Source: Planctomycetota bacterium (GTDB taxonomy: Bacteria > Planctomycetota > Planctomycetia > Pirellulales > Pirellulaceae). From it: a stretch of DNA of 12,644 nucleotides. Below, piece after piece: positions 454-12,644 of the stretch. Numbering within the stretch: the first letter of the stretch is position 1; every line of letters begins with the position of its first letter. The DNA lies in the NCBI GenBank assembly GCA_026692885.1, contig JAPLNJ010000743.1, positions 1 through 12,644 of the forward strand. The letters are read 5' to 3'. The position numbers were made by a program, and so were the translations under genes. Under the pieces are notes generated by a model. The model worked only from the letters and a program-made list of their open reading frames with translations, was not told the DNA's origin and made no database searches.

Positions 454-1659
454 TCAGTCCTTCGACCTCGCGCCGGGCAGTTTGCGGACGAGTTCCTTGG
501 CCAGCGTCTGCGAAGCGGCGGAGAGACGGGCGTAGGGCACCGTGACACGTTTGCCCTCGCGCGTCTCCAGCACGACATAGGGAGCTTGGGTGTCTTGAGC
601 ATGTCCAGACGCCACGAGCACCGCCTCCATCGCGGTTCCCTTGTCGCTTGTCCACTCATGGAACTGCTTCGCTGTCGCGGGCCCTTGCTGCTGGCCAAGC
701 ATGCCCGCAGCAGCGGGATCATGCTCCCGAATCCAATCGGCGGCCAGCGTTGCCGCGGGAGTGCCGGAATTCTCGGACACGATGCGCAGCAGTGCCGTCA
801 AAGCTCGGCGTCGACCGGTGGGCTTTTGCAGCTGATCCCGGGCCTCGTCCAGTTGCTCGGCCAGTTTCAGCGAGTCCCGCAGATCGGCGTTCGCTCGCGT
901 GCTATTGACTGCAGCGACAATCTCGTTCTTCAGCGGGGGAAGCGCGAGATAGCCCCGGCGCGTCGCCGCCAAGGCCAGGGCACCTTCCAGGCGTGTCTCC
1001 GGCTGGCCCAACTTCTGCTTGGCAGCGGCGAGATCGCTCCGGCCCTGCTCGATCAACTGCTGTGCAAAATTGTCCGCCTCGATGGCGACCTCGGAGTAGC
1101 TGCCCAGTTTCCCGAGCGATCCCAGTTGGCTGAGCTTGCTCAGATCACGCACGGCGCCCGCCACGTCGTGGGCGGCGTATTCCTGTTTGGCCCGGTCCAG
1201 CGAAGTCTTCAGCAACTTGAGCTGTTGATCGCTATAGATCGTCCCCGCTTGTTGGATGACCTGTTCGATCAGCTGGGGCAATTCCAACCCCGGCAACGCG
1301 CCGCTCTTTCCAAACAGTTGTTGCCCGTCGGCACGAACCACAAAGATAATGGGAATCGTGCTGCCTTCGTGCCGGAATCGCGACGCCCACTTGCCCCATT
1401 CCTCGCCATTCGTCTCGATCTTCAGCGGGATGAACCACCCCGCATAGCGTGCCAGCGACTGGTCGGTCTGCAGTCGCTTTAGCATCGCCGCGCACGGCGG
1501 TCACGTCTTGTTCCCGGCCATGGCGAAAATCGGGCGCCCCGTAATCTTGGAGAGTGCCGTCGCTTCGTCTACAGACTGCAGTTGTGCCAGCAGCACGGAC
1601 GGCATCGCAAACAGAATCGCGCAGCCAACCAGCATTCGGTGAATGGTGTTCCCAGACAT
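454..1659 (-). CDS. Exported thioredoxin-like protein with SHD1-like C-terminus, candidate selenoprotein (UPPC active site)
   Basis: This is one continuous minus-strand frame of 401 residues interrupted only by TGA at codon 53 (1501-1503). The ATG at 1659 is preceded by a strong Shine-Dalgarno GGAGGT and begins a signal peptide (residues 1-25, likely cleaved after VLLA). A thioredoxin-like segment follows. Residues 47-59 read MAGNKT-[TGA]-PPCAAM, so the codon lies where the first Cys of CxxC belongs, and the second Cys (C56) is kept. A cis-Pro-type motif (STIPIIFVV, P103) completes the thioredoxin fold. The middle is Ala/Leu-rich helix. Residues about 333-389 (W336, then VLET, GKRVTVPYARLS) resemble the SHD1 domain common in planctomycetes. 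The likely role is an exported thiol or selenol oxidoreductase. Standard calling would give a 52-residue stub and a headless 343-residue protein starting at 1485. The alternative is a nonsense mutation or sequence error, but about 345 codons remain open after the TGA, which argues for function. Confidence 0.75.
1450..1484 (-). promoter_or_regulatory. Candidate bacterial SECIS hairpin inside the coding region
   Basis: Downstream of the UGA the transcript can form a perfect 8-bp stem, AGCGACUG with CAGUCGCU (1471-1478 with 1454-1461). The 9-nt loop is CAGACCGAC and begins 31 nt after the UGA. Below a two-base AA bulge the stem continues with UGCU/GGCA (one U·G pair), giving 12 pairs in total. 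A smaller hairpin (CGCCG-UGCG-CGGCG, 1486-1499) lies between it and the UGA. Bacterial SECIS elements sit just after UGA with the apical loop within about 16-37 nt and usually a G early in the loop. Here the loop starts with G only if the top G-C pair opens, so the fit is good but not perfect. Confidence 0.6.
1501..1503 (-). other. In-frame UGA, candidate selenocysteine codon
   Basis: On the minus strand the codons read GCC GGG AAC AAG ACG TGA CCG CCG TGC GCG GCG ATG, translating as AGNKT-stop-PPCAAM with the same frame on both sides. TGA differs from Cys TGC or TGT by one base and occupies the nucleophilic position of a CPPC motif. TGA ends other genes here, including this one at 454-456, so general reassignment of TGA is not the explanation. 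Confidence 0.7.
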
Positions 1660-1670
1660 GGTTCTCACTG

Positions 1671-1676
1671 ACCTCC
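1671..1676 (-). promoter_or_regulatory. Shine-Dalgarno deciding the start of the thioredoxin-like gene
   Basis: GGAGGT on the minus strand ends 11 nt before the ATG at 1659. It favours this start, which gives a clean signal peptide, over the upstream in-frame ATG at 1830, whose extra 57 residues cross a repeat and look non-coding. Confidence 0.65.
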
Positions 1677-2095: not shown

Positions 2096-4480
2096 TCAGC
2101 GGACATCCCATTCATAGACGCCTGACGAGAACCCCGGCGAGAGCTGGATCTCCAGCCGGATCGCCGCAGTCGTGACCGGCGTGAAGGTGACCGTGACCGG
2201 CGCGTCTTTGGCAACGGGATACGACTTCACGCCTTCGACGGGCTTCCATTCGCCATCCGCCGTGCGGTAGACAATGCGCCACGAGGCGGGGATGCGGCAC
2301 TCGCCGTGCCCCGTGTCGTCGAACCACCAGATCGTGCAGGCCTTGACTTCTGCGGGTTTCACGAATTGGTACTGGATCCATTCGCCGGTGCCCTTGTGCG
2401 GCCAGAAGTCAAAGTTATTCGTAGATCGATCTTTCCCGTCGCCCGGCGCGACCGAATCGTTAACGGTTGACGGATCCATGCCGTCGCGGCAGAAGGAGAC
2501 CGTCACATCCGCCTGGCTGGCCAGCGTGTTCAGGCCCACCTTTTCGCGATTTTCTATCATCCAGACCTGCGACGTGCCCCCGCGGTTCAGCCGAACGTAG
2601 TTGGGCACGCCCACCAAGCCGCCGCCTTCGACGGCCACGACGCCGCCGAGCAGCTCCGCCCGCCAGGCCGGCTTGAGTTCCACGTCTGCGGCCAGCACCG
2701 CCACGCGAACGGGCTTCTCGCGATCGACATCTTCGAAGTTGTACACGATCGGCCCACGCTGCACGGCCACCCGCCCCCGATTGGCTACGACTTGTTCGTC
2801 GCAGCGAACCCGCTGCACCTCCATGGGCAGTGACAGCGTCACGTGATCCCCCGCCTGCCACGTACGCCGAATGCGGACGTACCCGTCTTCTAGGTCCGCC
2901 ACATAGGCCTGCCCGTTGACGTTCGCGCTGAACTTAGCGCCGGAGTCGGGCGTAACGCGGTACAGGTGGCTCTCCGTGCGGTCGGGGATGCGGAGGGCCA
3001 GTGTGAAGGCCGCCGGGGCCACCGGATTTATGGTGACGTTGACGTCGCCGTCCCACGGATAGCGAGTTTCCTGGCGGATGCGGAGGGCGGCCCCACCCAC
3101 GTCGGCAATCTCGCTGTCGCTGTCCACGAAATGGTTGACGTACAGGGTGTCCCGTTTGGCGTTGATGGAGTACATCAGATCCTTAATCGCGATCAGCGTA
3201 CGGGGGATGTTCCCGACGCAGCAAGGGCAGCCGTGCCAGGGATAGCGGGCCAGCCGAGAGACAAGCGGGTTTTGATAGAAGAAATTGGTCCCGCTGCGTT
3301 CGACGGCCCCCAGCACGTTATTGTACAGCACGCGCTCCTGTACGTCGCAGAAGTGTGCATTGGCATGCAGGCGGTGCATCCGCTCCGCCCAGAAACTCAG
3401 GCCGCAACCCGCGCACGACTCGCAATAGCCGCTGTTGGGCAACTCGTAGTCGTCCGCAAAGGCCTCGCCATGATGCGCTGCGCCAACACCGCCGGTCAGG
3501 TAGTGTTTCTTGTGGATCGCGTTGGCCCAGATGCGGTCGGCCGCCGCCCCGTACGCCGCATCACCCTTCAACAACGCCAGGTCCGCCATCGCGGTATAGA
3601 AATAGGTGGCGCGCACTGCATGGCCCGCGGCCTGGGTCATCTGGACCGCCGGCTTGTCAGACTGATTGTAGACGTCCGGATGGATCTCGTGCTGGTGATC
3701 CAGGAAATGCTTGGCCAGCGCAATGTACTTGTCACCCTGGCCGATTCCTGCGGCATCGTTTGCAAGCACTCCCAGCCGGCACAGGGCGTATTCGAGCCCC
3801 GGGTGCCCGTTCTTCCAGGTGCGTTTGGGAGCGGGACCAAAGGTCTCGCACAGGAGATCAGCGCAGCGGGTGGCTGCGCCGTAGAGCCGCCGGTCTTTTC
3901 CGCCCGTCATCCGGTAGTGGGCGACGCCCACCTCCACCAGATATCCCATCACGTAGAACTCGTGATCGCCGATAGCCGTGAAACGCGGACGTTTCTTGAG
4001 CGTGTGAAAGGAGTGGATGTAGCCGTCCTTGTCCTGCGCCGCCAAGATGATCGGGATCCACTCTTCGAGCTTGGCCCGCAGCGTCTCCTGCGCCGCGGCC
4101 AGTTGGGCGTCGCCGTCGGGATCGACCTCCAGCGCCAGACAGATGGCCTCGACGGTGTTGTAGATGTAGGCGTCGCTCCAGGGCGCACCCCGGTACTCGC
4201 CCACCGGCTCGCCCCGCAAAGCCTGGCCCGTCTGGATCAGGTTAAGTAGTTCCTGTCCTGCCCCGCCTTGCTCCATCTGCCGAACGCAGTGGGGAATCCA
4301 TTTCTCGATCTGGAGCTTGATCTGCTGTTTCCAGAACCCGTTGATCTTGACCCTCTGAAATCGGACCGGCTCAAGCGGGCGGTCTGATTCCATTGCATCC
4401 GCAGGCAAGGCCAATGCCATGCAGCCCAGTGACAGAATGGGCAGAATGGCAAGACGCAGGATGGGAAGACGCTGTTTCAC
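2096..4480 (-). CDS. Exported GH127/DUF1680 glycosidase (beta-L-arabinofuranosidase-like)
   Basis: The protein has 794 residues from the GTG at 4480, preceded by AGAAGGAG 8 nt upstream. That start begins a signal peptide (VKQRLPILRL, a hydrophobic run, then ADA) without the 36-residue upstream extension. The body matches the GH127/DUF1680 fold: an early FQRVKINGFW motif, a long (alpha/alpha)-barrel region, and a Zn-thiolate active site. E354 and C356 (in YCESCAGCG) and C420-C421 (in HGCPCCVGN) correspond to the Glu, Cys and CysCys of bifidobacterial HypBA1, where the second-cluster Cys is the nucleophile. Residues about 640-794 form a beta-rich C-terminal domain resembling a discoidin or carbohydrate-binding module (GTGEWIQYQF, IWWFDDTGHG, RLEIQL). 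The likely role is hydrolysis of L-arabinofuranosidic or related linkages outside the cytoplasm. GH127 and its relatives have mixed substrates, so the exact sugar is open. Confidence 0.88.
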   Translation of the reverse strand: MKQRLPILRLAILPILSLGCMALALPADAMESDRPLEPVRFQRVKINGFWKQQIKLQIEKWIPHCVRQMEQGGAGQELLNLIQTGQALRGEPVGEYRGAPWSDAYIYNTVEAICLALEVDPDGDAQLAAAQETLRAKLEEWIPIILAAQDKDGYIHSFHTLKKRPRFTAIGDHEFYVMGYLVEVGVAHYRMTGGKDRRLYGAATRCADLLCETFGPAPKRTWKNGHPGLEYALCRLGVLANDAAGIGQGDKYIALAKHFLDHQHEIHPDVYNQSDKPAVQMTQAAGHAVRATYFYTAMADLALLKGDAAYGAAADRIWANAIHKKHYLTGGVGAAHHGEAFADDYELPNSGYCESCAGCGLSFWAERMHRLHANAHFCDVQERVLYNNVLGAVERSGTNFFYQNPLVSRLARYPWHGCPCCVGNIPRTLIAIKDLMYSINAKRDTLYVNHFVDSDSEIADVGGAALRIRQETRYPWDGDVNVTINPVAPAAFTLALRIPDRTESHLYRVTPDSGAKFSANVNGQAYVADLEDGYVRIRRTWQAGDHVTLSLPMEVQRVRCDEQVVANRGRVAVQRGPIVYNFEDVDREKPVRVAVLAADVELKPAWRAELLGGVVAVEGGGLVGVPNYVRLNRGGTSQVWMIENREKVGLNTLASQADVTVSFCRDGMDPSTVNDSVAPGDGKDRSTNNFDFWPHKGTGEWIQYQFVKPAEVKACTIWWFDDTGHGECRIPASWRIVYRTADGEWKPVEGVKSYPVAKDAPVTVTFTPVTTAAIRLEIQLSPGFSSGVYEWDVR

Positions 4481-4488
4481 GAGATGGA

Positions 4489-4496
4489 CTCCTTCT
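4489..4496 (-). promoter_or_regulatory. Shine-Dalgarno deciding the GTG start of the GH127 gene
   Basis: AGAAGGAG on the minus strand lies 8 nt before the GTG at 4480. An ATG at 4501 and the far upstream ATG at 4588 are in frame but lack such a site, and they would bury the signal peptide. Confidence 0.65.
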
Positions 4497-5157: not shown

Positions 5158-5495
5158 CCGGCAAGACATCGCCAATTCTCCTATTGACCTTGCTTGCACC
5201 CCGCCAACCGGCGCAAAAGCTGACATGCACTCCTATACAGCCGACTGTAAGTTTCGGTCTTGTGCCCCTGGCCCGCGGCTGCTACTATCCGCCGCCGCGC
5301 GCAGGCCACTCGACGATGGAGGTTGAAGCCCACGCGGAACAGCAGGCCGACGGACGAGAACCGTCCACCCGTGAGGCGAGTCGGCCATCGAACGCAAGAC
5401 GGAGGTGCTCGACGGGTTGCCCCTCCGTCCTGTTGCTGACCGGCTGTTCTTTCCGTCCGCTTGCCCAGCACGTTAGCTTGCAGGAAAGGATTCGT
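5158..5495. other. Intergenic region and probable leader of the polysaccharide locus
   Basis: No gene is seen, although the wbpB frame stays open upstream by chance. A perfect 8-bp inverted repeat, GACGGAGG/CCTCCGTC (5398-5405 with 5422-5429, 16-nt loop), lies about 65 nt before wbpB and may structure its leader. No clear promoter or T-rich terminator was recognised. Confidence 0.4.
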
Positions 5496-6476
5496 ATGAA
5501 TTTTGCTCTGATTGGTGCCGCCGGCTTTATTGCGCCTCGCCACATGCAGGCGATTCACGACACGGGGCATGCTCTGATTGCCGCCGTGGATCCCCATGAC
5601 TGTGTCGGCAGACTGGACAATTTCTTTCCGGACGCCCGCTTCTTTACCGAGATCGAGCGTTTCGATCGGTTCCTTGAGAAGCGCCGCCGCGGCCCCGAAG
5701 AACAGCGGGTCGACTACGTCAGTATTTGTACTCCGAACTACCTGCACGATGCACACGTACGGCTGGCGCTGCGGGTCAAAGCCCACGCTATTTGCGAGAA
5801 GCCGCTGGTCATCAGCCCCTGGAATCTGGATGCCCTGCAGGACTTGGAGGCCGAGTATGGCTGCCGGGTCTACAGCGTGCTGCAACTCCGTTTGATCCCC
5901 ACCTTACAGGAACTCAAACGCGTGGTGGACGCGGACCACAGCAACCATCGCGCCGACATCTGCCTGTCCTACGTGACTCGCCGCGGCAAGTGGTACGACG
6001 CGTCGTGGAAAGGCAATCCGGAGAAGTCTGGCGGCGTGTCGATGAACATCGGCGTGCATTTCTTCGACCTGTTGGGGTGGTTGTTCGGCGAGCCGGAGCA
6101 TTGGGAAGTCCATCTCCGCACGCCGCGCAAGATGGCGGGTCTGTTGGAATTAGAACGTGCGCGCGTCCGCTGGTTCCTGTCCGTGGACGAAGAGGATCTG
6201 CCGGACTCGGTCCGGGAATCCGGCAAGTTCGCCTATCGTTCGATGACGCTGGACGGCCAAGAGATCGAATTCTCCGATGGCTTTACGGACCTGCACACGC
6301 GCGTGTATCGCGAAATCCTGGCTGGGCGAGGCAGCGGTATTGACGAAGCTCGTCCGGCCATTGAACTGGTGTTCGCACTGAACAACAGTGATACCGTGGC
6401 GCACCCCGAGTGCTATCATCCCTTCCTCGAGACGACGCAGGCCTTTGAAACGGCGTCGTATCGAAGAGCCGCGTAA
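5496..6476 (+). CDS. wbpB: UDP-GlcNAcA 3-dehydrogenase (Gfo/Idh/MocA family, WbpB/WlbA)
   Basis: The protein has 326 residues. The ATG is preceded by AGGAAAGGA, and the protein begins directly with the Rossmann fold. GAAGFIAPRH (7-16) is the GxxGxxxPRH nucleotide-binding loop characteristic of the WbpB/WlbA subgroup. CTPNYLH (78-84) and CEKPL (100-104; K102) follow. The C-terminal substrate domain carries TRRGKWYDASWKGNPEKSGG and the catalytic-type H188 and D191 (MNIGVHFFDLLG). In the known pathway the enzyme oxidises C3 of UDP-GlcNAcA with NAD+, and WbpE then transaminates the ketone. wbpD, wbpE and wbpI downstream support this assignment. The protein is full-length and cytoplasmic. The upstream in-frame extension to 5184 has no family resemblance and was not used. 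Confidence 0.92.
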   Translation: MNFALIGAAGFIAPRHMQAIHDTGHALIAAVDPHDCVGRLDNFFPDARFFTEIERFDRFLEKRRRGPEEQRVDYVSICTPNYLHDAHVRLALRVKAHAICEKPLVISPWNLDALQDLEAEYGCRVYSVLQLRLIPTLQELKRVVDADHSNHRADICLSYVTRRGKWYDASWKGNPEKSGGVSMNIGVHFFDLLGWLFGEPEHWEVHLRTPRKMAGLLELERARVRWFLSVDEEDLPDSVRESGKFAYRSMTLDGQEIEFSDGFTDLHTRVYREILAGRGSGIDEARPAIELVFALNNSDTVAHPECYHPFLETTQAFETASYRRAA

Positions 6477-6607
6477 CTAGGTTCGTCTTGACACCTTGAA
6501 CCCGGACCGGATACCGTAATGCCGTTGCGTGGCCGGCTGAGGGTGCCCTTCCTGGTCGGCAAAGCCGCCGGGTGTCGGAGTCCGCCGTATCGCCTAGAGG
6601 TCAGAGC

Positions 6608-7540
6608 ATGACCGGACGTTGGCCGGGTGGAAAACGATTTGCCTTCACCGTGTTTGACGATACTGATTTCTCCACGGTGGAGAACACCAAGCCGGTTTAC
6701 GACCTGCTGGCAGAATGCGGATTTCGGACCACCAAGTCGTGCTGGGTGCGCAAACCGGGGGACGGAGAATTCGGCAACTGTGCTGGCATGACGGCCGAGG
6801 AACCGGAGTATCGTCAGTGGTTGTTAGCCATTCAACGACAAGGGACGGAGGTGGGGCTGCACAACGTTTCGTACGCCTCTTCTACGCGCCAGCAGACCCT
6901 CGCGGGATTTGATCAGTTCGAACATTCCTTCGGTCATCCACCACACACCTTGGCCAACCATTCGGGCGTCCGCGAGTGCATCTACTGGGGCAATTATCGG
7001 GTGACCGGCGTGTGGCGACCGGTTTACAACCTGCTCACACGTCGTCGGCACACCAACTAGTTTGACGGTCATGTCGAGTCCAGCCCGGGTTTCTGGGGCG
7101 ACGTCTGCAAGCAGCGAGTCAAGTACGTTCGCAATTTTACGTTTCGCGACATCAATACGTTGAAAATGTGTCCGTGGATGCCTTACCACGACCCCCTGCG
7201 CCAGTACGTGAACCACTGGTTTGCCTCGTCCGACGGCCATCACCTCGACAGCTTTGTTGGCACGGTCTGCGAGGATGCCCAGGACCGCCTGGAGGCCGAA
7301 GGCGGGGCCTGCATCATGTACACACATTTTGCGGCCGGTTTCTACGAGCAAGGGAAAGTGAATCGCCGGTTCGCCGAGTTGATGCGGCGGCTGGCCAAGA
7401 AGAACGGCTGGTTCGTCCCCGTGGCTGAGCTCCTCGACCATCTCGGCCGACAGCAAGGCTTCCACGTGTTGACACCACGTCAACGTCGGCGCCTCGAAGG
7501 GACTTGGCTGTGGGACAAGATCCAGGTTGGGCATTCCTGA
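6608..7540 (+). pseudogene. Polysaccharide deacetylase-like gene interrupted by in-frame TAG
   Basis: This is one frame of 310 codons with TAG at codon 151 (7058-7060). Both sides read as the same family: a NodB-like N-terminal half (FAFTVFDDTD, D17/D18; GLHNVSYASSTR, H85; LANHSG, H118), then FDGHVESSP, RYVRNFTF-type segments and MYTHFAAGF. The ATG at 6608 follows AGAGG and is preferred to the GTG at 6572. Intact homologues would be cytoplasmic sugar or glycan deacetylase-like proteins found in exopolysaccharide loci; their exact substrate is not established. The TAG removes the C-terminal half, so the gene is probably inactive unless the codon is suppressed, recoded or a sequence error. TAG is a normal stop for other genes here (protease, wbpD, wbpE). 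A standard caller would report two ORFs, 6572-7060 and 7160-7540. Confidence 0.78.
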
Positions 7541-7558
7541 GAGAACGGTGGCAGGTTC

Positions 7559-7904
7559 ATGGCGAGTTTCATTTCGGCTGGCGCAGAACATAGCGAGCTC
7601 GTAGCGCGTTTCAATAGGCGTCTGCGGCTGGGACCAAGAGTTCTCCTGGGAACCCGGCCGCTTTCACGACCGTGATCCAAATTCGCGGCACGGGATTTCG
7701 ACGGAGAAGTTCTTGGTCTTGGACAGACAGGGCGAGATGCGGGCGGGTTACTACTTGAAGCATCAGCGTTACCGCTTGAGCGGCACGGAACAAGAGCTTG
7801 GAAACCTCGGGCTGCCTATTTCGGAAGGCATCGTTAGCTCGGAATATGCGGCCTTCGGCCTAGCTCTGGTGCAGGACGCGCTCCAACGGAATCCTCTCTG
7901 CTAA
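7559..7904 (+). pseudogene. Remnant of a GNAT-like acyltransferase gene, frameshifted and truncated
   Basis: From the ATG at 7559 the first 23 codons (MASFISAGAEHSELVARFNR start) look like the N-terminus of GNAT-type proteins in such loci. That frame then loses its family character and stops at 7673. The recognisable continuation lies in another frame from about 7620 (WDQEFSWEPGRF, then FLVLDRQGEMRAGYYLKHQR, then LPISEGIVSSEYAAFGLALVQDAL) and ends at TAA 7902-7904. A frameshift must therefore lie near 7600-7640. The product breaks off where the family normally continues for roughly another hundred or more residues, and FkbH coding sequence begins at once. The family assignment is from memory and is moderate. 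Confidence 0.6.
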
Positions 7905-7908
7905 AGTC

Positions 7909-8997
7909 TTGGTCCTGGACTTGGATAATACGCTGTGGGGAGGCGTGATCGGCGAAGATGCTTTGGGGAGCATCCGGGTGGGTCCGCCTACGGCGGAGGG
8001 CGAAGGTTATCTGGAATTGCAGAAATACGTCAAGGAACTTCAACAGCGCCGCGTGCTCCTAGCCGTCTGTTCGAAGAACAATCTGGCCGACGCGGAGCTG
8101 CCCTTCCGCGCACACGATGCGATGCATCTGCGGCTCGAAGACTTCGCCGCATTTGTGGCCAATTGGCAGGACAAAGCCACCAACCTGGAGGTGATCGCCG
8201 GGGACCTCTCGCTCGGTCTGGACTCGTTTGTATTCCTGGACGACAATCCCCTCGAACGCGCGCTGGTGCGCGCACGCCTGCCCCAAGTGGTGGTCCCGGA
8301 GTGCGGAAAGACGCCGTGGGGAATGCTGGCGGCCCTGCGGCGCGGCTTGCACTTCGAGACGCTCACGCTCACCCCCGAGGATCGTGACCGGCACGCGAGC
8401 TATCGGAGCACGTCCGCGCGCAAATCACTGGAAATGAGTTCCGCCTCGCTGGACGACTTGCTGCGACTGGAAATGGGCGCCGAGCACGGCCCGATCGACG
8501 AACAGACCCTGCCTCGGGTGACGCAGCTCATCAACAAGACGAACCAATTCAACCTCACCTCGCGGCGCTATACCGAGGCCCAGGTCAGAAGCCTGACGCA
8601 GTCGTCCAACTGGTGGGGCCGCTGGTTCCGGCTCGCCGACCGCTTCGGAAATCACGGCCTGGTGGGGGTGATGCTGGCGCGGATCGAGGAACGCCGCTGG
8701 ATCATCGATAATTGGCTGATGAGTTGCCGTGTCTTGGGGCGGAAGCTGGAGGACTTCATGCTTTGCGTGCTGCTGTCCGCAGCTCAGGAGCGGGATGCGA
8801 TCGAGGTGTTGGGCGAGTATGCCCCGACCGAGAAGAACCGTCTCGTCCGGGACCTCTATCCGAAATTGGGGTTCACACCCGTGGCCGAGGACTCCTATCA
8901 TTACGTTTTGAATGTTGCGGGACAGCCCGCTCGCTCGTGCGAGTTCATGCGTTTGATAACTCGCGGGGGCCCTGGCGAAGGGCAAGCGGCCGCGTGA
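7909..8997 (+). CDS. FkbH-like HAD-IIIC phosphatase / GNAT protein, apparently 5'-truncated
   Basis: The 362 codons run from a TTG. The HAD motif DLDNTLWGG (D4, D6) comes at the very start, followed by the HAD motifs VCSKNN and FLDDNPLER. A GNAT-type second half follows (RFGNHGLVGVMLARIEE, WLMSCRVLGRKLEDFML). FkbH-type proteins handle acyl or glyceryl groups; in polysaccharide loci their substrate is uncertain. The frame is open only back to 7864 and has no ATG or GTG and no Shine-Dalgarno, and the TTG falls inside the first HAD strand (AKVLVLDLDNT). The WGGVIGED version normally carries a long N-terminal SGNH-like domain, which is absent here. A short FkbH form of about 360 residues exists, so a functional short protein is possible, but the missing start favours truncation. 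Confidence 0.75.
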   Translation: MVLDLDNTLWGGVIGEDALGSIRVGPPTAEGEGYLELQKYVKELQQRRVLLAVCSKNNLADAELPFRAHDAMHLRLEDFAAFVANWQDKATNLEVIAGDLSLGLDSFVFLDDNPLERALVRARLPQVVVPECGKTPWGMLAALRRGLHFETLTLTPEDRDRHASYRSTSARKSLEMSSASLDDLLRLEMGAEHGPIDEQTLPRVTQLINKTNQFNLTSRRYTEAQVRSLTQSSNWWGRWFRLADRFGNHGLVGVMLARIEERRWIIDNWLMSCRVLGRKLEDFMLCVLLSAAQERDAIEVLGEYAPTEKNRLVRDLYPKLGFTPVAEDSYHYVLNVAGQPARSCEFMRLITRGGPGEGQAAA

Positions 8998-9030
8998 CGA
9001 GACCGGCGCCACTCCGAGCCGAGGCTCGTC
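8996..9030 (+). other. Hairpin overlapping the fkbH-like stop codon
   Basis: GACGAG (8996-9001) can pair with CTCGTC (9025-9030); an alternative inner hairpin is GAGCC-GA-GGCTC (9016-9027). No T-tract follows, and the CTAGCACCAAACG repeat box starts immediately after. It may be the edge of a repeat element or a weak terminator. Confidence 0.3.
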
Positions 9031-9043
9031 CTAGCACCAAACG
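9031..9043 (-). repeat. CTAGCACCAAACG box, inverted copy
   Basis: This is the reverse complement of CGTTTGGTGCTAG, which occurs in direct orientation at 341-353 and 9268-9280. Together with the 9268-9280 copy it brackets the 32-bp inverted repeat, as terminal inverted repeats would. Confidence 0.6.
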
Positions 9044-9108
9044 CTATGTTGGCCCTTACGCGTAAAGAATGAGACTTAACGGTTCAGCAGGGACGGGGCG
9101 CGAGACAA

Positions 9109-9204
9109 GGGGTCAGACGTACAGATTTCAGTTTTCGCGGTCGTGTGCTCAAGCCCATGAAAAGCCTTCTGCCCGCGAAAACTGAAATCTGTACGTCTGA
9201 CCCC
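9109..9204. repeat. Perfect 32-bp inverted repeat with 32-nt spacer
   Basis: The left arm (9109-9140, starting GGGGTCAGACGTACAGATTT) is exactly complementary to the right arm (9173-9204, ending GTACGTCTGACCCC). The 32-nt spacer is 9141-9172. GGGGTCAGACGTAC-type sequences recur near REP-associated tyrosine transposases in my memory, so a REP/MITE element is the best guess. It contains no gene. Confidence 0.85.
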
Positions 9205-9264
9205 AGCTGGCGGTCCGTCTATGCGAAACCGTAAAACCCCATCCTTGACACCGACAACCCAGAA

Positions 9265-9280
9265 AACCGTTTGGTGCTAG
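9265..9280 (+). repeat. AACCGTTTGGTGCTAG box, direct copy
   Basis: It is identical over 16 bases to 338-353, almost 9 kb away and in a different context. An inverted 11-base partner, CTAGCACCAAA, lies at 9479-9489, overlapping the first codons of wbpD. Confidence 0.65.
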
Positions 9281-9471
9281 CGTCGGGCCGAAAGCGGAAT
9301 TCGCGTCTCGGAAAGATGCGACGACGGGCGGGACTCCCCCGCGCCCTCGTGGGGATTCTCCTGCCCGGCTTGCTCGCCTGCTCAGCCCCCGGTAATCACT
9401 CTTGCCGCGAGGCGGTATCCGCAGTACTCTACTCACGCTCAAACACCGCAGTCTTACGGAGCACAACCGGC

Positions 9472-10089
9472 GTGTCAGCTAGCACCAAAGATTACTTCGT
9501 GCACGAGTCGTCTTACGTGGACGACGGCGTGGAAATTGGCGAGCAGACGACAATCTGGCATTTCTGCCACATCCTGAAAGGAACTCGCATCGGGAAGCTG
9601 TGCCGGATCGGTCAGAATGTGGTGATCGGTCCCCACGTGGCCGTCGGCAACAACGTCAAGATTCAGAACAATGTCTCGGTGTATTCAGGCGTGACGCTGG
9701 AAGACGACGTTTTCTGTGGCCCTTCGATGGTCTTTACGAACGTCATCACGCCCCGCTGTGCCTTTCCCAGGAACGCGGACAAGGACTTTGCACCGACGCT
9801 GGTGAAACGCGGAGCGAGCATCGGCGCCAACGCCACGATCGTCTGTGGGCACACAATCGGCGAGCACGCCTTGATCGGCGCGGGTGCCGTCGTGACCAAA
9901 GACGTCCCGGCGTATGCGGTCGTGTATGGCAACCCGGCCCGTCAGCATGGCTGGGCCTGCGAGTGCGGGGTCGTGCTGGCATTTGACGGCGACCACGCCG
10001 AATGCCCGGAGTGTGGCCGTCAGTACCGACAGATTGACGGGGTAACCATCGAACGTTTGACCGAGGTGAAAGCCCAAGCAGCCACCTAG
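9472..10089 (+). CDS. wbpD: UDP-GlcNAc3NA N-acetyltransferase (left-handed beta-helix, WbpD/WlbB)
   Basis: The protein has 205 residues from the GTG at 9472, with GGAG 10 nt upstream. The frame is open back to 9271, but that part has no family resemblance and crosses a repeat. Hexapeptide repeats fill most of the protein ([60 protein letters not shown]), giving the trimeric left-handed beta-helix. In the known pathway it transfers acetyl from acetyl-CoA to the 3-amino group made by WbpE, yielding UDP-GlcNAc(3NAc)A. The C-terminus carries a four-Cys knuckle (C163, C165, C178, C181; CECG and CPECG) that looks like a small zinc ribbon, an addition to the minimal enzyme. Placement between wbpB and wbpE agrees with the role. 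Confidence 0.9.
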
Positions 10090-10169
10090 ACTCTGGGGCT
10101 GCGTGGCTTTCCGACTCAGTGGCGTTGTGACAACTGGACTTGAGGATTATCGGACAGGCAACAGGAACC

Positions 10170-10460
10170 ATGGATACGCCGACGAACCAGCCGTGGTGGG
10201 CGTTACACGTCCGAGTCTCTCGCGGCGAGATGCTCAGCGAGGAACAGCGTATCACCTATGAGAAGGGCCTGAAGGAATTGCACGACGAGGAATCACTAGC
10301 GGATCTTTCGGTGTTACGGCAAACACGTGCAGCGGTGATGGAGTTAGACGCGAAATGCGACGAGTTGCACGCGCGGCGCCAGCAATTGAAAGGAAGAATT
10401 GCGCACTTGGAAGCAGCGCTGACCGAGGAAGCCCGTAGGAATCTGGGCATCGGGAATTAA
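10170..10460 (+). CDS. Small coiled-coil protein of unknown function paired with HNH gene
   Basis: The protein has 96 residues, with ATG after AGGA. It shows no recognised family. The N-terminus is WWALHVRVSRGEMLSEEQ, and the rest is highly charged helix with Leu heptad spacing (residues about 50-90: LRQTRAAVMELDAKCDELHA, then LKGRIAHLEAAL), predicting a coiled coil. The stop is only 3 nt before the GTG of the HNH endonuclease, so the two are surely co-transcribed and probably translationally coupled. An upstream in-frame TTG at 10140 is less likely. It may be an oligomerising partner or regulator of the nuclease; this is inference. Confidence 0.7.
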   Translation: MDTPTNQPWWALHVRVSRGEMLSEEQRITYEKGLKELHDEESLADLSVLRQTRAAVMELDAKCDELHARRQQLKGRIAHLEAALTEEARRNLGIGN

Positions 10461-10463
10461 CCC

Positions 10464-10979
10464 GTGGCGCACGTGAAGCACCAGGAAGTGCAACGGCAAT
10501 ACCGATGCCAATGCGGTTACTGCGGGGTCACGGAGACCGACTGCGGCGGTGCATTGACGGTCGACCATTTTCGTCCCGTGTCGCACGGCGGCGATGAGTC
10601 AGACGACAATTTGGTCTATGCTTGTTTCAAATGCAATCAGTTCAAGGGGGACTTCTTTCCGAGTCCTGACGATCAACGCCACGGACGACGTGTGCTGCAT
10701 CCGCTGGTCGATCAGGCCAAGCAGCACATGCGGCTGGATGAATACACGGGATGGCTAGAACCCCTAACGACGACCGGACGATTTCATATTGCCTTGCTGC
10801 AATTGAATCGTCCTGCCCTGATTCAGCATCGTTTGCAGCGTCGCATGTTGAACTGGCTGGTGGAACGAAGGGAGCTGTTAGAAGACGAGGTCGACATGCT
10901 GACATCGACGATTACTGGGTTGGAACTCCATGTCGCGAGGCTCGAACGTCTGTTGGGTTCTGCCGCGGACGACGGATGA
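10464..10979 (+). CDS. HNH endonuclease
   Basis: The protein has 171 residues from a GTG 3 nt after the previous stop, with GGGAA in the end of the upstream gene as ribosome site. A Zn-HNH domain lies at residues 15-62: CGYC (C17, C20), LTVDHFRPVSHGG (D34, H35), N49, and CFKCNQFKGD (C54, C57, N58). All canonical metal and zinc-knuckle positions are present, so the domain should be active. The C-terminal 100 residues are helical, with a Leu-rich end (about 125-165), perhaps interacting with the coiled-coil partner. It is cytoplasmic. The substrate is unknown; such stand-alone HNH proteins can be mobile-element, defence or housekeeping nucleases. It sits between wbpD and wbpE, with which it has no obvious metabolic link. 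Confidence 0.85.
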   Translation: MAHVKHQEVQRQYRCQCGYCGVTETDCGGALTVDHFRPVSHGGDESDDNLVYACFKCNQFKGDFFPSPDDQRHGRRVLHPLVDQAKQHMRLDEYTGWLEPLTTTGRFHIALLQLNRPALIQHRLQRRMLNWLVERRELLEDEVDMLTSTITGLELHVARLERLLGSAADDG

Positions 10980-11083
10980 TGCTTGCCTTTTCTCGTCTTG
11001 GACGTTGTGACTCTTGGCCCCCTTCGACTCCGCAACTCTTCCACTTTTGACCCGTGCATTTTTTCCGGCAAGGACGCCACCCC

Positions 11084-12253
11084 GTGATCCCGCTTTGCGA
11101 CCTGACACAGCAGTACCTTTCGCTGAAGACCGAGATTGACGCGGCGATGCAGCGCGTGGCCGAAGAGGGCCACTACATCCTGGGGCCGAACGTCAAGGCT
11201 CTGGAGCAGGAAGTCGCCGCATTTTGCGGCTGCCAATATGCTGTCGGCGTAGCGAACGGGACGGACGCGTTGCACCTGACGCTCCGCGCTCTGAACATCG
11301 GTCCCGGCGACGAGGTCATCACCACGCCCTTCACGTTCGTGGCGACGACCGAGGCGATTGGCCTGGTGGGTGCCAAACCGGTGTTTGTGGACATCGATCC
11401 ACACACCTACAATATCGACCCGAAGCTAATCGAACCCGCCATTACGCCTCGGACGCGCGCGATCCTGCCCGTCCACCTGTACGGCCAGCCGTGCGACATG
11501 CAACCTATCATGGCCCTGGCTGAGAAACACGGATTGCCCGTTGTGGAGGACTGCGCCCAGGCGTTGGGGGCTGCCTATCAAGGCCAGCAAATCGGCTCGT
11601 TTGGCACGGCCGGCTGCCTGAGCTTCTTCCCGAGCAAGAACCTCGGCTGTTTCGGCGACGGCGGCATGGTGGTCACGAACAATCCCCAAGTCTACGAGCG
11701 CGTCGAGATGCTCCGGCGTCACGGGGGTCGAGTCAAGTACCATCACGAGGAATTGGGACTGAACAGCCGGCTGGATGAACTCCAGGCCGCAATCCTGCGG
11801 GTCAAATTACCGCACGTACCGCGCTGGAATCAGCTCCGGCGCGAGCATGCGTACCGCTACAACAAGCTGTTGGCGGGGATTGTCGGCGTCGAGTTGCCCT
11901 CGGAACTGACGGCTTCCGGCGGGCTCCCTTCCGGCAGCTTGGCAGCCGCCGAACCGGACGGACTCGTGACGGCGGTCTATCATCAATACACGGTCCTTCT
12001 GGAAGATCGGGACGCGGTCAGCCGCGAGTTGAGCGCGGCGGGCATCGGCAATGCGGTGTACTATCCCGTCCCCTTACATCTGCAAGGCGTCCACGCCGCC
12101 CTGGGCTGGACTGCGGGAGCGTTTCCCCACGCCGAACGCGCCGCGCGGTGTTGCCTGAGTCTGCCCATGTTTCCGGAACTATCCCTGGATCAACAGCAAC
12201 GCGTGAACGCGGTGTTACGAGCGGTTTGTGCGGCGCGGGCCGCTTTGTCGTAG
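11084..12253 (+). CDS. wbpE: UDP-3-keto-GlcNAcA aminotransferase (DegT/DnrJ family, WbpE/WlbC)
   Basis: The protein has 389 residues from the GTG at 11084 (AAGGA 9 nt upstream), giving the typical family start MIPLCDLTQQY. The GTG at 11054 has no such support. Features of PLP sugar aminotransferases are GTDAL (59-63), HLYGQPCDM (131-139), VVEDCAQALGA (D156 to the pyridine N) and SFFPSKNLGCFGDGG, with K185 as the Schiff-base lysine, the same number I recall for P. aeruginosa WbpE. It uses glutamate to aminate the C3 ketone produced by WbpB. An extra Ala/Gly/Ser-rich stretch (LTASGGLPSGSLAAAEPDG) before VYHQYTV is longer than usual and probably a surface loop. The stop codon TAG is also the beginning of a palindromic repeat. 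Confidence 0.93.
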   Translation: MIPLCDLTQQYLSLKTEIDAAMQRVAEEGHYILGPNVKALEQEVAAFCGCQYAVGVANGTDALHLTLRALNIGPGDEVITTPFTFVATTEAIGLVGAKPVFVDIDPHTYNIDPKLIEPAITPRTRAILPVHLYGQPCDMQPIMALAEKHGLPVVEDCAQALGAAYQGQQIGSFGTAGCLSFFPSKNLGCFGDGGMVVTNNPQVYERVEMLRRHGGRVKYHHEELGLNSRLDELQAAILRVKLPHVPRWNQLRREHAYRYNKLLAGIVGVELPSELTASGGLPSGSLAAAEPDGLVTAVYHQYTVLLEDRDAVSRELSAAGIGNAVYYPVPLHLQGVHAALGWTAGAFPHAERAARCCLSLPMFPELSLDQQQRVNAVLRAVCAARAALS

Positions 12254-12302
12254 AACGGATTTCAATCCGTTCCGTGAAAAGCGGAGTGAATTCCGCTCTA
12301 CG
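12249..12302. repeat. Double-hairpin palindromic (REP/BIME-like) repeat
   Basis: Outer arms CGTAGA (12249-12254) and TCTACG (12297-12302) enclose hairpin one, AACGGATT-TC-AATCCGTT (12254-12271), and hairpin two, AGCGGA-GTGAAT-TCCGCT (12280-12297). I recognise this pattern as a common intergenic repeat in planctomycetes and related phyla (memory, not searched). It supplies the wbpE stop codon and could act as an RNA stabiliser or attenuator between wbpE and wbpI. Confidence 0.7.
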
Positions 12303-12399
12303 AAGGGACAAACCTGGCCGCGGGCAGTATGGTTCTCACCTCGCACTTCCCACGGAGCCGTCTGGCAGAAACTTACTTTGCTACGCCACGGAGTTGCCC

Positions 12400-12644
12400 A
12401 TGCTGAAAATCGCGACCATCGTCGGCGCGCGGCCGCAGTTCATTAAATGCGCGCCGGTCTCCCGCGAGCTACGCCGACAGGCGACGGAGGTGTTGGTCCA
12501 TACCGGCCAGCACTACGACGACGCGATGAGTGAGGCGTTCTTCCGGGACCTGGAAATCCCCGCGCCGGACTACCGGCTGGACATCGGTTCCGGTTCGCAT
12601 GGTGTGCAGACCGGCAAGATGCTCGCCGCCATCGAAGACGTGCT
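12400..12644 (+). CDS. wbpI: UDP-GlcNAc(3NAc)A 2-epimerase, non-hydrolysing (WbpI/WlbD), partial at window edge
   Basis: The first 81 codons are present and the gene runs off the right edge. GGAG 6 nt upstream supports the ATG. The sequence begins MLKIATIVGARPQFIKCAPVS, the signature of non-hydrolysing UDP-GlcNAc 2-epimerases, followed by HTGQHYDDAMSEAFFRDL and GSHGVQTGKML. Family members include WecB (UDP-GlcNAc) and WbpI (UDP-2,3-diacetamido-glucuronate). The context of wbpB, wbpD and wbpE, and the IPAPDYRLDIGSGSHG-type wording, favour WbpI, which inverts C2 to give UDP-ManNAc3NAcA. The catalytic residues further on cannot be seen. Confidence 0.88.
   Translation, partial: MLKIATIVGARPQFIKCAPVSRELRRQATEVLVHTGQHYDDAMSEAFFRDLEIPAPDYRLDIGSGSHGVQTGKMLAAIEDV

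Follow-up and report, generated by a model that had tools for sequence, protein, structure and literature searches.

A reading frame of 401 codons on the minus strand of the 12,644-nt stretch of DNA analysed here (the window) is interrupted once, by a TGA at 1503–1501, which raises the question of whether this triplet separates two genes or is decoded within a single one. The sequence-only reading had described two minus-strand ORFs in the same frame parted by this TGA, and its coordinates were correct: the frame (457–1659) extends from an ATG at 1659–1657 over 52 codons to the TGA at codon 53 (1501–1503), and then over 348 open codons to a TGA stop at 456–454, the whole gene (454–1659, minus strand) specifying 401 residues. 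As that reading had also stated, the downstream part is undisturbed, and the TGA occupies the place of the first Cys of a CPPC motif with an intact second Cys, so that read-through gives U-P-P-C (residues 53–56; 1492–1503, minus strand) within the context FAMAGNKT-U-PPCAAMLK, with the next Met at 1485. Where that reading had claimed a strong ribosome site, a GGAGG is present (1672–1676, minus strand) as a possible ribosome-binding site, usable but, at 12 nt from the ATG, somewhat far. The N-terminus (approximately residues 1–25; 1585–1659, minus strand) does look like the proposed signal peptide, both by inspection and by hydropathy (best 12-residue mean of 2.38), and residues 1–30 have a low pLDDT in the structure model.

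The predicted structure is a confident model with a thioredoxin fold (approximately residues 26–140; 1240–1584, minus strand). The Thioredoxin_7 profile (PF13899) scored 23.8 bits on the window protein against a gathering cut-off of 27, and matched all 31 family members at E ≤ 0.1 (best 2.7e-11), while PF13098 scored 14.4 bits, below its Pfam cut-off of 27, and matched 23 of the 31 at E ≤ 0.1. Pro103 (1351–1353, minus strand), at what we take to be the cis-proline place of thioredoxins, is unchanged across 31 sequences. In the model, this domain is followed by a helical domain (approximately residues 144–324; 688–1230, minus strand), with TPR_6 matches in 7/31 family members, and by a small beta domain (approximately residues 334–393; 481–660, minus strand). 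The latter had been called SHD1-like from the sequence; Pfam found no SHD1 (PF03983) in the window protein at E up to 1, but did so in 11 of the 31 members, and the family profile matches the SLA1 SHD1 structure 2hbp at E 4.8e-7.

Elsewhere in the window, the region 3′ of the gene (1–243) contains a perfect 22-nt inverted repeat (82–103 and 145–166) that sits inside a 56-nt, 79% inverted repeat (5–60 and 188–243). Two adjoining frames (6572–7060 and 7160–7540), with no Pfam match at 1e-3, look by eye like parts of a single polysaccharide-deacetylase-like protein that a stop or frameshift has divided. The stretch 5184–12644 resembles a cluster for surface sugars, since its genes include those for GFO_IDH_MocA, a hexapeptide transferase, a DegT aminotransferase and a UDP-GlcNAc 2-epimerase.

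The codon at position 53 was compared in a sample of 396 genomes of the order Pirellulales, 49 of which had a match, and 30 loci (L023–L052) were counted, including the fragment L045, which was retained in every count. This comparison, a check that the sequence-only reading had proposed, revealed TGA at 24 loci, TGC or TGT at the remaining six, and nothing else. The recurrence of the same TGA in 24 of 30 loci, with Cys in the other six, makes this observation more than chance; among the loci sampled from the order, TGA is thus the more frequent of the two forms. From the 19 matching genomes outside these 30 loci, which gave weaker matches, three codons were read (L129, L131 and L132, all Cys) and 16 were left out. 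In all, four loci of the order sample besides the 30 counted ones were found to carry Cys, two of them being distant relatives. Two candidates for the TGA form, a weak match in G031 flagged with one TGA and locus L110, proved to have TGC as the motif codon and were excluded from the TGA count. Two Cys relatives, L052 (CEEA) and L131 (CREA), keep the first Cys and miss the second, and possibly form a separate subfamily.

Beyond the order, 23 of 392 genomes in a phylum sample matched at E ≤ 1e-10, and the 13 loci with a codon read comprised 11 with Cys and two with TGA. One of the latter (L106, in G401) is a distant Thioredoxin_7-type gene with the motif UGYC, a tRNA-Sec in its genome and a hairpin z-score of –1.57, and perhaps represents another selenoprotein group. 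The other (L107, in G672), with the motif UGNC, has a TAG further on, only a tRNA-Ser matched in its genome and a hairpin z-score of +0.92; the additional TAG and the lack of both tRNA-Sec and hairpin make it likely to be a decoy or a decayed gene. A tree of the family required four Sec/Cys changes (three to four in bootstraps), although it is unrooted and a single change is possible. One genome, G298, holds both a TGA copy and a Cys copy.

The nearest named relative, at 61% identity, was found in a MAG of Candidatus Anammoximicrobium, which NCBI taxonomy places in the order Pirellulales, and was the sole match in a scan of genome contigs; its DNA continues in frame upstream to an identical FAMAGNKT-TGA-PPC. 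No relative was found among viral contigs. A protein search yielded 40 proteins, including the downstream frame of the window itself, and their alignments with the read-through protein started at residue 58 or 59 in 27 cases, at residue 69 in six and further on in another six. The remaining one (P0042) aligned from residue 9, but by inspection crosses the site in another frame. This clustering of alignment starts at residue 58/59 indicates that the database group has been cut at one place; the sequence-only reading had suggested that automatic annotation misses the gene. A further protein search, started from the family alignment, gave 45 proteins, among whose five new ones were a full-length Cys form (P0044) and a truncated product of a TGA gene (P0045).

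The same alignment starts would also be seen if translation really stopped at 1501 and the annotated protein of 343 residues were made from a new start at Met 1485, and some restart under selenium shortage is possible. Gene callers, however, cut here by rule, the shorter product would be left without the nucleophile, half of the fold and the export signal, and Cys-form relatives such as P0044 are one protein, so that two separate products are very improbable.

If the TGA is instead decoded as selenocysteine (Sec), genomes with the TGA form should be considered together with their Sec machinery. The Anammoximicrobium genome contains SelA (551 bits), SelB (370 bits), a tRNA-Sec with a UCA anticodon, and a SelD (360 bits) that has an in-frame TGA of its own in the context UAGK, which fits the UxxK motif tabulated in PMC13188914. 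A tRNA-Sec above 60 bits was present in 23 of the 24 TGA-form genomes, in 22 of which ARAGORN also named it tRNA-SeC. SelA exceeded its cut-off in 115 of the 396 genomes overall, divided as 21/24 with the TGA form versus 94/372 others (Fisher p 1e-9). SelB, searched in 12 genomes, was found in five of the six of these that have the TGA form. The TGA-form genomes without SelA are G338 and G027, both having SelB and tRNA-Sec, and G289, a genome of unstated completeness in which neither SelA, SelB nor tRNA-Sec was found. Among the six Cys-form genomes, G022 and G179 carry SelA, SelB and tRNA-Sec. In G280, SelA is over its cut-off while SelB and tRNA-Sec are both missing, and the other three genomes have none of the three.

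SelA matches at E ≤ 0.001 occurred in 263 of the 396 genomes, with 115 over the cut-off, and the full-length matches of 150–270 bits suggest SelA-like paralogues, of which G280 is perhaps a case. In a single genome (G364), the tRNA-Sec gene, at 4397–4493 of locus L083, lies on the strand opposite to the selenoprotein gene and within about 0.5 kb of the end of that gene.

A TGA gene in a genome without detected Sec machinery, as in G289, might hint towards TGA being read as an amino acid other than Sec, through a changed code or plain stop read-through. Against this, TGA is also the stop codon of the present gene, of several other genes in the window (GH127 among them) and of eight of the 31 family genes, and both the exclusive exchange of the position with Cys and the tRNA-Sec found in all TGA-form genomes except one argue for Sec. 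We therefore regard such an alternative decoding as highly unlikely.

Coding constraint was compared upstream and downstream of the TGA. Between the window and L023, pN and pS were 0.148 and 0.556 over the 24 codons before the TGA, and 0.094 and 0.586 over the 59 codons after it, and in five other hand-chosen pairs pN was likewise smaller than pS both before and after. As judged from these substitution patterns, the codons upstream of the TGA are under purifying selection, and the comparison shows a frame with the signature of coding on either side of codon 53.

The RNA downstream of the TGA was examined by comparing the 60 nt after codon 53 with 300 synonymous recodings per gene, which is a test of stability rather than of covariation. 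In the window, these nucleotides fold into a hairpin (1446–1489, minus strand, with an apical loop at 1462–1470) of –20.6 kcal/mol, presumed to be a SECIS element, with a z-score of –2.81. All 25 TGA genes had negative z-scores (mean –2.12, with p < 0.05 individually in 14), which are not independent of each other since the genes are related, while the six Cys orthologues had a mean of +0.28 and did not overlap with the TGA genes. Other segments of the same genes (ten each, and five in L045) gave a mean of –0.22. In G298, which holds both forms, the hairpin is present in the TGA copy (z –2.53) and absent from the Cys copy (z +1.15). Along the gene, the stability signal was strongest, with a mean of –2.02, in the segment 12–60 nt past the TGA, and a weaker second signal was seen in segments starting at 36 and 48 nt. 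Taken together, the comparison shows a position 53 that exchanges only with Cys, and a predicted downstream hairpin that accompanies the TGA genes and not the Cys genes.

The position of the hairpin was less discriminating than its stability. Counted from the first base of the codon, the loop centre of the best hairpin was located at 33.5–39 nt in every one of the 25 TGA genes and at 22.5–43 nt in the six Cys genes, with L027 falling within the TGA-gene range, and this overlap is why the synonymous recodings were used instead. RNAalifold, run on a gap-free alignment with fixed columns, revealed no consensus pair, and Rfam gave no match over the window at gathering scores. The bacterial SECIS model, as given in the accessible part of PMC13188914, calls for a stem-loop 16–37 nt after the TGA with an MFE of at most –7.5 kcal/mol and a G within the first two loop positions, and some bacterial SECIS elements are stated there to break it. 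In the window, the 9-nt loop starts 30 nt after the TGA, in line with the stem-loop part of this model as is its folding energy, but no G occupies its first two positions, in departure from the published loop rule. The strict model is satisfied by 14 of the 25 TGA genes and by three of the six Cys genes, and with such proportions it cannot separate the two forms.

Also very improbable is a pseudogene or miscall, with a single mutation or a sequencing error having turned a Cys codon into TGA, for although TGA is one base away from both TGC and TGT, and L107 shows that such decoys exist, the same TGA recurs in 24 of 30 independent loci, and the frame here is otherwise intact, with both the hairpin and the upstream constraint present.

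These data as a whole are very probably best explained by one gene that encodes an exported thioredoxin-fold selenoprotein. That the gene product is a selenoprotein with Sec at TGA 53 is, on comparative sequence evidence, almost certain, and its role is likely to be that of an exported thiol-disulfide oxidoreductase, which may act as a reductase or as an isomerase. The claim of a planctomycete selenoprotein was supported, though the window protein turned out to be no single oddity but a member of a family. The outcomes named beforehand as speaking against a selenoprotein (reads with TGC or TGT at 1501–1503, absence of the whole Sec machinery from a complete genome, or homologues lacking Cys at this position) did not appear among the checks that were run.

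The type of mechanism is ordinary. SelB and tRNA-Sec, guided by the hairpin, would decode TGA 53 as Sec, after which the exported protein could attack a disulfide or similar oxidised substrate with Sec53 and resolve the resulting selenenylsulfide with Cys56. The helical and SHD1-like domains may bind a client or position the enzyme in the envelope, and electrons might be supplied by a DsbD-type membrane protein. DsbD_TM was found in all 24 TGA-form genomes but also in 10 of 14 control genomes, and thus has no specific link with the family. The gene neighbourhoods (20 regions, L001, the window) revealed no shared neighbour indicating a substrate, and the neighbour clusters present in at least three loci, the family itself aside, came mainly from near relatives. 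It is conceivable, if rather doubtful, that these Sec-dominant proteins are chaperone-like thioredoxins, with a client-binding helical domain after the thioredoxin domain and an SHD1-like anchor, which serve redox upkeep of the envelope in Sec-decoding Pirellulales and may help to keep the Sec trait in the order.

The family would add to the known selenoproteins from a phylum that is unnamed in the text of the reviews PMC13188914 and PMC9312934, where the string "planctomyc" has no occurrences. The TGA-form members found in the searched database lack their active site, so that entries labelled "hypothetical proteins" are read wrongly at the residue that matters most. Moreover, the family offers a test case for selenium use outside the cytoplasm, for which the Cys orthologues and the one genome with both forms are natural controls.

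Among known families, NCBIfam cut-offs were compared for 11 of the 31 members. The window protein had only a chance-level match (TIGR00962, 13.5 bits versus 484), and ten further members scored no higher than 29.2 bits for any of the listed families, well short of the cut-offs. With regard to fold, the first Foldseek row was YbbN/CnoX of E. coli (3qou, E 3.3e-6), in which a thioredoxin domain is followed by helical repeats as it is here, but the overall superposition was poor (TM 0.22 when scaled to query length, with an rmsd of 13.3), and YbbN was not among the 50 rows listed by VIA-align, which tests residues 22–138 well. To our knowledge, YbbN/CnoX is not exported and has no Sec. The C-terminal domain of DsbD was also among the Foldseek matches of the window model. 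The bacterial disulphide isomerase 3fk8 and the ERp18/AGR2 group, unlike the window protein, are single-domain proteins of approximately 130–160 residues that use Cys.

Within the same phylum, the accessible part of PMC4807772 reports selenoproteins and Sec genes in the planctomycetes P1 and P2; those named there, FdhA and FmdB, belong to other families than the window protein. We found no description of the present family, and an earlier listing in the candidate supplement of that paper is possible. Table 1 of the 2026 review PMC13188914, by its own statement, covers 119 selenoprotein families and subfamilies, including several UxxC thioredoxin-like ones but none that combines Thioredoxin_7, helical and SHD1 domains. 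The PF13098 thiol:disulfide interchange selenoprotein described there shares with the window family a UxxC on a Thioredoxin_2/7-type domain, and is set apart from it, by description rather than by sequence, through the other domains attached. The Trx7/PDZ selenoprotein NF041199 gave no match for the window protein at E ≤ 0.1 and 12.7–21.3 bits for seven of ten other members, against a cut-off of 300. As described in PMC13188914, it is, like the window family, a selenoprotein family with a Thioredoxin_7-type domain, but joins a CxxU motif to a PDZ domain, where the window family joins UxxC to a helical and an SHD1-like domain.
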